Assembly: GCA_963457665.1 (NCBI GenBank)
Contig: OY735219.1
Coordinates: forward strand, 21,123,394-21,187,393
Direction: 5' to 3'
Origin: Thysanoteuthis rhombus
Lineage: Eukaryota > Mollusca > Cephalopoda > Oegopsida > Thysanoteuthidae
DNA: 64,000 bases
Program-made: the position numbers and the translations under genes
Shown here: positions 3,743 through 54,650 of the stretch, piece by piece
Position numbering within the stretch: position 1 is the first letter of the stretch
Layout: the number at the start of each line of letters is the position of its first letter
Notes under the pieces: generated by a model
Told to the model about the DNA's origin: nothing
Seen by the model: the letters and a program-made list of their open reading frames with translations, nothing else
Databases searched by the model: none

Positions 3743-3995
3743 TCCACTCGGATAGTGTAATGGTTAGTATGTCTGCCTCACATGCAGAAGGTCCAGGGTT
3801 TGATTCCCAGTATGAGTGAAGAGTGTGGAAGAATTCATTAAATGTCCCTGAGCACTCAGCAGCTAATTAAGTACACTCTAAGCTGTGTGATTAAAGTGAA
3901 GATATCCCTTAGGTGGACTTGCATCCTGCTTAGGGAGTGGGGGGCGGGTCATAAAAACTTGTAAGAATAAAGTCTTGGTCTTAACCAGACTTGAA
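3743..3995 (+). mobile_element. tRNA-Val-like SINE
   Basis: Bases 3746-3818 fold like a tRNA: acceptor CACTCGG against ATGAGTG, a D arm with ATGGTTAGTATG as A box, an anticodon arm TCTGC-CTCACAT-GCAGA giving anticodon CAC (Val), and a B box GGTTTGATTCC at 3798. An unrelated tail of about 170 bp follows, ending in AAGTCTTGGTCTTAACC. The tail and weak T stem argue for a SINE rather than a working tRNA gene. Several tRNA-derived SINE families are known from cephalopods. Confidence 0.75.

Positions 3996-5582: not shown

Positions 5583-5607
<25 letters not shown>
5034..5607 (+). mobile_element. Family O interspersed repeat, copy 1, with (TA)n tail
   Basis: This block starts at CCAACACAACAGATTCAATA and runs to AGCTGTAAAGCTGTCTAAAC followed by (TA)n. 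It matches 58508-59018 almost throughout, and its last third matches 53636-53884. Shared landmarks are CATCGTTAAAAACGTTTTTA, GACTGTTTTGTTTTTA and the TA tail. No frame is conserved. I cannot assign it to a known class. Confidence 0.75.
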
Positions 5608-10232: not shown

Positions 10233-10764
10233 AATAGCTAGATCAAACCAGACTCTTAAAACTCATTCATATATTTCATCAGATTGTTTTTTTTTTGTTT
10301 TTTTTATTAAACAAAAAAATGCTTTTAGGGGTCTTATGGTCATTTTGTACCTATAAAGTCCAAATCTTTTTGCTGGTATTTTTTAAAATAATTATTTCTG
10401 TTACAGGTACGGGCTACAGTGATTCATTCATGAGAGGTACGGATATATGTATATCATCATCATTAATTTTTGCCACTATTTACCTTCAAAAAATTAATAA
10501 TAATGATTCCATTACTTGTTTTGTAGAGAGAACAGCAGTGCACCACTATCCAGCTATAAGAACTTGATACTCTCTCTAAAGAAGGCAGCCCTGCTTTCCC
10601 TCACTTATTTTTTGATTTCAGGATCAACCTCTTTCAGAATGAGCCAATTTCAAATATTTTGATCAATTAGATATTTAGCTTAAACAAGCAACGAACTTTT
10701 GCATTAACCAATAATATTGGATCTCTAGATTATTAAATAATTTCAACACCTATTCTGTCCAGCC

Positions 10765-12581: not shown

Positions 12582-12697
12582 TATATAAAGTGCCATTTAG
12601 TTGAACATCAGAATCTCCACATCAGGGAAGTATCAGATATTAAGCTGATTAGAACGGATACTACACTTAGATCTTAGCCAAAAGGCTGACAGGTGCA
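12582..12697 (-). pseudogene. U2 snRNA pseudogene
   Basis: Minus-strand bases 12697-12631 follow the 5' part of U2 snRNA: GCCTTTTGGCTAAGATC, then AAGTGTAGTATC with the branch-point-pairing GTAGTA intact, then TAATATCTGATA. There is one inserted T after GATC and several 5' changes. Beyond the GATA the match fades (only TAAATGG near 12593) and no Sm site is seen. It is best read as a dead or truncated retrocopy; a divergent real gene is less likely. Confidence 0.8.
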
Positions 12698-22609: not shown

Positions 22610-22807
22610 TCATAGACAGCTGTTTCAATGTATTACATCTCTTCAATGTGGCTAGAGGCCGATATCTAACCTCTGGACTACGGAACTGGACAGTCAGTAA
22701 GGCTGAATTTAAGCGATATATCTATTTACACAGAAATCCCTCATCCATCAGTATGCTCTATTCCTATGGAAGAGCACTGCATAAGCTTACGATGGATGAG
22801 TTACCTC

Positions 22808-22812
<5 letters not shown>
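22609..22812 (-). mobile_element. 204-bp unit between microsatellites carrying a decayed hammerhead
   Basis: The unit lies between (TG)n(TA)n and (TA)n tracts. Its minus-strand 3' end holds the hammerhead relic (22611-22660). An inverted word is present inside: CCATCAGTATGCTCTATTCC against GAGCACTGCATAAGC..GATGG. The size and microsatellite borders suit a retrozyme or a solo terminal repeat of a Penelope-like element; the class is inferred. Confidence 0.5.
22611..22660 (-). ncRNA. Decayed type I hammerhead ribozyme motif
   Basis: Minus strand: CTAGCCACA, TTGAAGA, GATGT-AAT-ACATT, GAA, ACAGCTGT, C. It aligns with 53968-54022, but C3 of the core is T, G10.1 faces U rather than C, and the stem I 3' strand is changed (TATG in place of TGTGG). 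These changes should abolish cleavage. Confidence 0.7.
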
Positions 22813-30190: not shown

Positions 30191-31155
30191 TATATCATAT
30201 TTATTTAGCACTGAATATCATCAAGTAGAGGCATCAAAATGAGCAGAATTTGAACGTTGGGGGTGAGGCCACATGTTGAAACGGTGGTAGATGAAGGTGT
30301 GGCAACATAATTTTTGTCACATGTGTTAATTGACGTCACTGAACTTATGCATGATTCTTGCTATGCATGCAACAAATATAATCATATATTTTTCTTATAA
30401 TTTTTATAAATAGAGAAATTTGACATTTGGTGAAGTAATTTCATAGTAGCAGTACTATTATAGTATTGTGTTCCATTTGAGAAACCTCCTCAAATGGAAT
30501 CACTAGCAATCATTTTCTCTGTAGATTTATTACCTTTTCTACTGAAACCAAAAGATCACCAAGAAAAATACCAACTTAATCCTCAATTTTACAAAATACT
30601 AATTTTACTAAAATAGAGTAATAAGTAAGATTATTATCTCATCAAGAATAATGTAAATAGAAATTTGTAATTTAGATGCCGCCCAAACAATCAAACAGTG
30701 AATTTCAATTACCTTCTCTTGATTACTTCTCTTTCTGTCGTTTGCTTTGCATTACGGATTTTGATATTGTTACAATCCTGTTGTTGTATGGTGACTTGTT
30801 GTGTTGCCCATAATAATACTCAATGAGCAGTTTGAGGGTCCTACATTCCTCATCTGGCCTGGGTCTATTACTAGCTCTGCCTGACCCTGTGCTCTAAGAA
30901 TTTTTTCAAAGATTCTCACTAAATCTATTCTGTAATTTTTATGGCTCCAACCAATGCAAATTACAATTGAATGTTTATTTTGCAATAAATATTTTAGTTA
31001 TTCTAATACAAACAAATGTCAGACTTAAATAATTGGAACCCTTCAATGCCAAGGATCAACCTATTCAGATACATAGCTTTAGACTTTTCAGTAAAAAAAT
31101 ATAACTGAAAAAAAGGTTGGGGATCAAGTGAAGTTCACCAATACTTTACCTCTTG
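30191..31155. other. Unassigned stretch
   Basis: AT-rich; no supported feature. Confidence 0.3.
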
Positions 31156-31159
31156 ATGG

Positions 31160-32016
31160 TAACGATCCATACTTGGCTCAGTTGGGTGGTACAGAGCTAT
31201 ACTTGGCTCAGTTGGGTAGTACCAATCTTGCTTCAGTTTCATTAGGTGGTACTGAGCTATACTTGGCTCAGTTGGGTGGTACTGAGCCATACTTGACTCA
31301 GTTGGGTGGTACTGAGCCATACTTGACTCAGTTGGGTGGTACTGAGCCATACTTGACTCAGTTGGGTGGTACTGAGCCATACTTGACTCAGTTGGGTGGT
31401 ACTGAGCCATACTTGACTCAGTTGGGTGGTACTGAGCCATACTTGACTCAGTTGGGTGGTACTGAGCCATACTTGACTCAGTTGGGTGGTACTGAGTCAT
31501 ACTTGACTCAGTTGGGTGGTACTGAGTCATACTTGACTCAGTTGGGTGGTACTGAGCTATACTTGGCTCATTTGGGTGGTACTAAGCTATACTTGGCTCA
31601 TTTGGGTGGTACTGAGCTATACTCGGCTCAGTTGGGTGGTACTGAGCTATATTTGGTTAAATTGGGTAGCACTAATCTTTTCTTGGCTCACATGGGAGGT
31701 AGAAACCTTCATTTGGTTCAATTGATTGGTACTAATTTTTAATTCCCGTGATGTTAGAAAAATGAATGTTTGAAAAATTGTAGCAAAACCTTGTTTTGCT
31801 TATTCTTACCTTCAGTTTTCACCCTGGTGGTACCTATCTTTACCTGGTCTCATAGGATAGTACAAATATTGATTTGGTTATATCGATTGGTACCGATGGT
31901 CACCTCTGTGGTACTAATCTTTACTTAGTTATATTGAGTGCTACTAATCTTTACTTAGTTATATTGAGTGCTACTAATCTTTACTTAGTTATATTGAGTG
32001 CTACTAATCTATACAG
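31160..32016. repeat. 30-bp minisatellite, homogeneous core and decayed flanks
   Basis: The unit is a 30-bp word containing TACTTGACTCAGTTGGGTGG and TACTGAGCC. About nineteen units fill 31160-31740, the central eight or nine almost identical. A degraded zone follows, then four more 30-bp units of a diverged type (TACTTAGTTATATTGAGTGC) at 31890-32016. Because 30 is divisible by three, the array is open in one plus frame (204 codons, LGGTEPYLTQ decapeptide) and one minus frame (131 codons). There is no start context, splice site or homologue to support translation. Confidence 0.9.
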
Positions 32017-53635: not shown

Positions 53636-53884
53636 TGTGTATGACTGTTTTGTTTTTAAAATACGTGAAACGGTTAAATTGTAAACAACTGATGATCCCA
53701 ATAAGAAAAGATTTACACATAGTATCATAATAAAAAAATATTTGTGAAACAGGGAAAAAAACACTGAAGAACATTACATAAATTGCGTTGACGGATATTG
53801 GGGAATAAATGACTGAAGTGACGAAAAAAGTTTTCGAAAAGATTCTTTTTGATATTTAGTGTTCAAAGCTGTGAAGCTTTCTAG
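53636..53884 (+). mobile_element. Family O repeat, copy 2 (3' third)
   Basis: From GACTGTTTTGTTTTTAAAAT to AAGCTGTGAAGCTTTCTAGA, then (TA)n, matching 5330-5580 and 58792-59018. Confidence 0.75.
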
Positions 53885-53891
53885 AATATAT

Positions 53892-53946
<55 letters not shown>

Positions 53947-53960
53947 TAGATAGATAGATA
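53885..53960. repeat. (TA)n(GATA)n microsatellite
   Basis: Compound tract joining the family O tail to the hammerhead unit. Confidence 0.95.
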
Positions 53961-53967
53961 TTATTGT

Positions 53968-54022
53968 GTCATCCACAGACAGCTGTTTCGATGTATTACA
54001 TCTCTTCAGTGTGGCTATAGAC
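53968..54022 (-). ncRNA. Type I hammerhead ribozyme, apparently intact
   Basis: Read on the minus strand. Stem I outer GTC (54022-54020) pairs with GAC (53970-53968). Internal loop TATAG faces AT. Stem I inner CCACA (54014-54010) pairs with TGTGG (53977-53973). Core CTGAAGA is at 54009-54003. Stem II GATGT-AAT-ACATC is at 54002-53990, with the required G10.1-C11.1 pair. GAA is at 53989-53987. Stem III ACAGCTGT at 53986-53979 is an 8-base palindrome (two pairs with an AGCT loop as monomer, fuller pairing as a dimer). C17 is at 53978, giving a GUC cleavage triplet. The very short stem III is typical of hammerheads in Penelope-like elements and metazoan retrozymes. Self-cleavage is predicted, not shown. 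Confidence 0.88.
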
Positions 54023-54650
54023 TTTATCCCATCCAGATATATATATATATTTATTTATTTATAAGCTCAATCTGACGGTGCGACAAAATAGAGGTACTCA
54101 TTGAGTATCAAATTCATTACACTGAGAATGGTTACCAAGAACATCACTGAAGAATAAGAAAATTGAAAGAAGCAGGATACATACTGTGCTATAATAATCT
54201 TCTCAGAATGCTTACCATAAATTTGAATACCATATGGAGGCCTTGGATTAGTAAGCAACATACATGAGATCTAAGGCTCCCAAATTCTACCCTATGTCTT
54301 ATGGGATAATGGCATAGTGGATATAAGCATTGGTAGTGTATGCAGTTGGTGGGTTTACTGCATCTACCAGGATTCTTTTCAATGAGTGATATGCTGAACA
54401 CCAACAATTAGTACAGGCTTTAGTAGGATTCTGTCTCTGTGAATTGTCGGCAAACCGTACTTATGTACCTTTGATTCAAATGTCTGTATTCAGCATGAGT
54501 GGAGTGATCTCTTCTTTGGACGGTAGTGGCTATCATCCTCGGAAACAGAGGCGAGCAGATACCCCATTAATCAACTATGCTCATGTTTGTGAGATGACAA
54601 GTATTGCATTGAAAGCCTCACATATCCACGGAATCTTATCCCAACTCTTT
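54023..54650. other. Unassigned stretch
   Basis: Short TA/TTTA repeats at 54040-54062; otherwise unrecognised. Confidence 0.3.

Follow-up and report, generated by a model that had tools for sequence, protein, structure and literature searches.

The hammerhead motif on the minus strand at positions 53968 to 54022 of the window (the whole 64,000-nt stretch of squid DNA analysed here) is part of the last 77 nt of a noncoding repeat unit of about 310 nt and not a lone ribozyme. We put the probability at roughly two in three that this motif belongs, as its hammerhead, to a non-LTR retrozyme of squid: a noncoding, non-autonomous element whose cycle would involve RNA circles and the reverse transcriptase of a Penelope-like element. 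The repeat family is present in thousands of copies, with seamless tandem junctions, fixed ends and a frequent association with TA tracts.

The hammerhead motif and its copies in the window

The features of the window that bear on this finding are as follows (numbers preceded by u refer to the 310-nt consensus of the repeat unit, u1-u310, in which the predicted ribozyme cut lies between u292 and u293).

53960..54036, minus strand: 5'-truncated copy of the putative retrozyme, consensus u229-u310 (blastn of the unit consensus; locus L002 is the same site)
53968..54022, minus strand: type I hammerhead ribozyme motif with core and stems complete and with comparative support; predicted cut between 53978 and 53977
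54022-54020 with 53970-53968, minus strand: outer stem I, GUC/GAC
54014-54010 with 53977-53973, minus strand: inner stem I, CCACA/UGUGG
54009-54003, minus strand: C3 to A9, CUGAAGA
53990..54002, minus strand: stem II, GAUGU-AAU-ACAUC, 5 bp with an AAU triloop; pair 2 is A-U here and U-A in the second large lineage
53989-53987, minus strand: GAA of the hammerhead
53979..53986, minus strand: stem III palindrome ACAGCUGU, which varies among copies
53978, minus strand: C17 of the hammerhead, at the predicted cut (53978/53977)
53960..53977, minus strand: 18-nt 3' tail downstream of the ribozyme cut, an AC-rich part followed by AAUAAU; integrated copies usually end here
53886..53961, no strand assigned: (TA)n/(GATA)n tract beside the element 3' end (TRF); target or tail
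22611..22811, minus strand: second copy of the putative retrozyme, internally deleted and with a damaged hammerhead (C3 changed); (TA)n tracts on both sides (blastn)

An earlier note, made from the sequence alone, had described a complete set of hammerhead core bases on the minus strand (54022-53968), a stem I of 5 bp plus 3 bp, a perfect stem II and an adjoining (TA)n(GATA)n tract, and each of these was found again in our analysis. The site carries C3UGANGA, GAA, the A15.1-U16.1 pair, H17 and three stems, and is open at stem I, as expected for the class. Stem III had been described as an 8-base palindrome: the palindrome is there, and the full 8-bp pairing is not available within a single motif, where stem III amounts to 2 bp (A-U and C-G) closed by an AGCU tetraloop; up to 8 bp can form between two motifs, so that a second motif is required. 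A scan of the 64-kb window with a grammar of core plus three stems returned this site as its single match, and the same grammar gave one match in total over 100 simulated Markov-1 windows, that is approximately 0.01 expected per window, in line with the view that a chance origin is very unlikely.

The copy that holds the motif is 77 nt long, is 93.9% identical to the consensus across 82 aligned columns (blastn) and is flanked by TA-rich sequence on both sides. Having a single hammerhead, it could cleave a transcript but could not release a monomer or a circle by itself; this copy is probably inert, save for a possible cut if it is transcribed. The second copy at 22611..22811 was missed by the core grammar scan.

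Covariance model scores and predicted folding

At the gathering thresholds of Rfam the window copy gave no match, RF00163 included, and in E-value mode its only hammerhead hit was to RAGATH-1-hammerhead, with 15.3 bits where the gathering level is 56.3. The covariance test set in the earlier note would thus be failed by the window copy, which scores at background. Among the relatives, a genome-wide RF00163 search (73 scored of 299,496 candidates) found one that passes, L001, with 35.6 bits. When 20 loci were scanned with Rfam, hammerhead matches to five motifs were obtained in L027, L041 and L043, all below gathering level (25.3, 23.5 and 23.5 bits for RF00163; 28.8 and 24.5 bits for RF00008). 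From the sequences compared here, we judge that the comparative evidence outweighs the background score of the window copy. Many sub-threshold miRNA matches were also returned by Rfam in the window and in the copies, and were taken as (TA)n artefacts.

The minimum-energy fold predicted for the monomer (-15.6 kcal/mol) is not the hammerhead, for which the predicted energy is -8.5 kcal/mol, and the fraction of monomers with a free core is estimated at about 6e-5 by a folding model without tertiary contacts. Dimer-assisted cleavage through the short palindromic stem III, as the earlier note suggested, is plausible by analogy, because of this unfavourable monomer fold and of the precedent of axolotl hammerheads with a weak helix III that act as dimers, described in the cited sections of PMC7229834.

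Family size and covariation of the stems

The genome assembly searched comprises 2,731,506,558 bases in 514 contigs. A 32-nt core pattern with two positions left free as A/T was found at 5,594 sites, the reversed control giving 0. Among 100 of these core sites that were listed, all on contig C1, pair 2 of stem II is A-T in 52, T-A in 46 and mispaired in 2 (C1:4360635 and C1:40050004). Stem II has been kept paired in two large lineages, which suggests that the ribozyme was retained in the source copies. With a 75-nt hammerhead query, 40 copies were scored of 275 candidates, at 90-100% identity and with the window site among them; an interior query yielded 40 copies scored of 5,139 candidates. 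Thirty loci from each query were analysed, and the resulting 60 end-mapped copies correspond to 59 places because L027 and L064 coincide. A further search with a pattern that demands the core returned 54 places (reversed control 8), several of them plainly unrelated, and 30 of the 54 were made into loci. By the grammar, the motif is intact in 10/30 copies of the interior query and in 21/30 copies of the hammerhead query.

The motif alignment (A1) contains 74 rows, of which 72 are distinct; rows that did not span the motif or had E > 1e-3 were left out. Its core conservation is partly built in, since part of the rows came from the core-demanding pattern. In A1, 91.4% of the stem cells are paired. 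Change on both sides was counted in 33 cells, where shuffles gave 15.4 and slid controls 2-14; the structure that was counted had been named from the window copy, which by itself favours it over slid ones. These two-sided cells fall on three pairs, with 29 at one stem II pair and 3 and 1 at two others. Three pairs with two-sided change (a count reached in 303/500 shuffles) and 15 further pair types (reached in 399/500) are no more than shuffling gives, and slid versions of the structure had 2-10 pairs of the former kind. Two-sided change is absent from stems I and III in A1, and RNAalifold run on the same alignment predicted zero pairs. Compensatory change among the relatives is thus confined to stem II, and mainly to one of its pairs. 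Taken together, the dispersal in thousands of copies, the tandem units of about 310 nt and the two-sided change in stem II support the assignment, made in the earlier note, to type I hammerheads of the metazoan-retrozyme kind.

Other hammerhead-like motifs were met in the loci. A different one with a paired stem II occurs in L007 (position 1126, reverse complement), where a TA-rich stretch follows it, and in L043 (position 1281, plus strand), and may represent a second ribozyme repeat family. Cores of the form CTGATGA..GAAAC with a paired stem II stand in other contexts in L011 (1738) and L057 (1684), both in reverse complement.

Repeat unit, tandem junctions and element ends

Tandem units, each with a hammerhead, follow one another at a spacing of 304-311 nt in L027, L041 and L052. 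The unit consensus is 310 nt long, noncoding, with a GC content of 44.5%, and a two-unit consensus reaches at most 107 codons between stops. In the multimers examined, unit joins unit directly and no coding region lies between them. Genome-wide, the seamless head-to-tail junction was found at 1,129 sites, and 6,882 sites join the element 3' end to (TA)n (in both cases with at most 1 mismatch and a reversed control of 0).

The 3' end is fixed. It lies at u301-u2 in 29/30 copies from the interior query, the exception being L073 at u285, and at u299-u4 in 30/30 copies from the hammerhead query, which itself includes that end. The 5' ends are more variable: in the interior-query copies 8/30 start at u1-u3, one at u307 and 14/30 at u61-u77, and in the hammerhead-query copies 8/30 start at u298-u3 and 8/30 at u62-u78. 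The pile-up at u298-u3 has a probability of about 1e-4 for uniform ends, for a span that was picked after the data had been seen. The interior query spans approximately u75-u205, so that the interior sample is biased against longer truncations. Six interior-query copies with a 5' end at u1-u3 have a non-TA flank, and the end there is therefore no TA microhomology; of the 8 hammerhead-query copies that start at a full lap, 5 have TA-rich 5' flanks, which make the end uncertain. Full-length copies begin at the base adjoining the 3' end (u310/u1), and copies longer than 1.1 units account for 5/30 and 3/30 of the interior-query and hammerhead-query sets, respectively. At the second cluster of 5' ends (u61-u78), a sequence variant is common to L075, L081 and L085.

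The (TA)n tract is the usual neighbour of the element 3' end: the 3' flank is TA-rich in 52/60 copies and the 5' flank in 25/60, against 165/5,519 20-mers in the background. No target-site duplication of at least 6 nt was found in the 28 copies with a non-TA 5' flank (shuffled mean 0.78); (TA)n flanks would hide others.

Search for a tRNA-like head and for a partner enzyme

A pol III SINE head, considered at first, found no convincing support from ARAGORN, Rfam or tRNA alignment. ARAGORN, used with the bacterial code, detected 0 tRNA in 38 loci, Rfam in E-value mode found no tRNA match in the one copy scanned, and the similarity of the unit to the tRNA of the window did not rise above shuffles (72/1000). 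That tRNA gene or tRNA-like copy is located at 3746-3818 of the window (plus strand) and reaches the Rfam gathering level with 44.9 bits. The unit has an A-box match, at u165 only, and no canonical B box, so that a tRNA-related 5' head with A and B boxes, by which a tRNA-derived SINE is recognised, was not found.

Regarding a partner enzyme, the 310-nt repeat has no frame for the reverse transcriptase plus GIY-YIG of a Penelope-like element, as judged by frame length. A search of the genome for the GIY-YIG family, in which 150 of 1,161 candidates were scored, gave 7 matches. L094, the match examined, is a degenerate fragment, Penelope-like by eye, and no complete Penelope-like element was seen in it. 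A diverged repeat at 53640-53890 (plus strand) ends in the same (TA)n tract as the retrozyme fragment, the two lying tail to tail, and recurs in L052, L073, L093, L011, L037, L060, L051 and other loci. No coding part that would make this repeat a partner LINE was recognised by eye in its diverged copies.

Proposed cycle and alternative explanations

Integrated copies usually extend 18 nt past the predicted cut, hence the RNA that was copied did not terminate there. A template in the form of a circle, or of a multimer left uncut, on which copying began internally would account for this 3' end, for the adjoining 5' end after one lap and for the seamless dimers. In the cycle that we propose, head-to-tail units would be transcribed and the hammerhead, possibly dimerised via the stem III palindrome, would cut after C17 and free monomers, which a host RNA ligase could then circularise. 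A reverse transcriptase, most likely provided by a Penelope-like element, would copy the circle at an AT-rich target, starting 18 nt downstream of the cut, within the AC/AU-rich stretch, and running for one or more laps. Copies made in this way are expected to share one 3' end next to (TA)n and to differ at the 5' end, with a pile-up where one lap is complete, and some would be dimers with a seamless junction. The cut (u292/u293) and the integrated ends (u310/u1) differ on one circular map, so that full-length copies would correspond to one lap and dimers to longer laps. A narrower statement, which we put forward tentatively and with somewhat more doubt than belief, is that the copies in the genome are a record of retrotransposition whose template was an RNA circle produced by the ribozyme and opened at a Penelope-like start site within it. 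If true, the squid family would be direct genomic evidence for retrozyme circles as templates and for a Penelope-type enzyme as the mover.

Much of this pattern could also come from a linear SINE-like element running from u1 to u310, with tails of (TA)n and mobilised by an ordinary LINE. The hammerhead would then be an inherited passenger or a trimmer of RNA ends, and template jumping or unequal exchange would have made the dimers. Linear RNA with these ends would likewise give sharp 5' ends (u1-u3) and 3' ends (u310), a hammerhead cut would strip the last 18 nt, so that the copied RNA did not end at the cut, the variable 5' truncation resembles LINE behaviour, and a different noncoding repeat ends in (TA)n on the far side of the same tract. 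We nevertheless regard such an element, the main rival, as unlikely, if well worth keeping in view, given the lack of target-site duplications of at least 6 nt in the 28 informative copies, the 1,129 junctions without TA between units, the position far inside the unit of its sole promoter-like signal (the A-box match), and the paired stem II of the two large lineages, which points to a ribozyme kept in the source copies.

Very improbable, in our estimation, is a fragment of the pseudo-LTR of a Penelope-like element with its minimal hammerhead. Internal initiation past the hammerhead and AT-rich targets are traits of these elements (PMC11167929), and a Penelope-like GIY-YIG fragment exists in the genome (L094, the likeness being by eye); against this, the repeating unit has only 310 nt with no frame above 107 codons, the multimers examined lack a coding region between units, and the stem III bases and two-part stem I are unlike the minimal hammerhead of Penelope-like elements. 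A chance resemblance in an AT-rich repeat would agree with the window copy being at Rfam background, and it is hardly credible in the face of about 0.01 matches expected per window, copies that number in the thousands and show two-sided change in stem II, and a relative (L001) above the RF00163 cut-off. A non-LTR retrozyme is the reading that we favour.

Other features of the window and of the genome

A U2 snRNA-like copy at 12585-12697 of the window (minus strand, 63.8 bits) reaches the Rfam gathering level, and a 30-bp tandem repeat at 31095-31742 (plus strand) has an open frame over 215 codons from stop to stop. Contigs C198 and C514 are mitochondrial-like. In C198, COX1 occurs twice per period of about 20.5 kb (positions 10313, 17488 and 30857) and reads as an animal COX1 under the invertebrate mitochondrial code. 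A duplicated COX1 in a mitogenome of about 20 kb is typical of oegopsid squids.

Comparison with known systems

The hammerhead repeats Sm-alpha of Schistosoma are reportedly SINE-like in nature and, like the squid family, carry the hammerhead inside a short repeated element. The squid differs from them in the weakness of its tRNA-like segment, which consists of an A-box match with no tRNA called by ARAGORN or Rfam; a tRNA is described for the schistosome repeats in the cited section of PMC4918200.

In the lizard Penelope-like element Poseidon of Anolis, reverse transcription starts internally, past the hammerhead, at an AC-rich stem loop and on AT-rich targets, and the hammerhead is not needed for insertion in vitro (PMC11167929). 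The squid element resembles Poseidon in a hammerhead just upstream of the presumed start, an AC-rich region and an AT-rich target, and departs from it in having no protein-coding part, a 310-nt unit and a hammerhead with stem III bases.

Our literature search, which lacked most subscription journals, found no work pairing the hammerhead ribozyme with cephalopods, and papers pairing it with squid belonged, by their titles, to other fields only. Molluscs as retrozyme hosts are not new, as a mussel family is named in the cited sections of Cervera and de la Pena (2020, PMC7229834), in which cephalopods are not named. According to these sections, the non-LTR retrozymes of metazoans are tandem noncoding units of 150-450 bp with a type I hammerhead and a GC content below 50%, occur in high copy number, have target-site duplications above 4 bp when these are present, and coexist with Penelope-like elements; the axolotl types have a helix III of one pair with a palindromic tetraloop or of two pairs with a tetraloop. 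Their Discussion proposes, as a hypothesis, that the circles are templates and that Penelope-like elements are strong helper candidates. The squid family is like the retrozymes so described in unit size, GC content, tandem hammerheads, copy number and weak helix III, and unlike them in its host, in the lack of a detected target-site duplication and in copies whose 3' end, next to (TA)n, falls 18 nt downstream of the cut. Its thousands of copies, with their fixed ends and numerous seamless dimers, make both the recopying of retrozymes and the enzyme responsible testable with genome and RNA data, and the family would extend ribozyme-made circular RNAs to the cephalopods.
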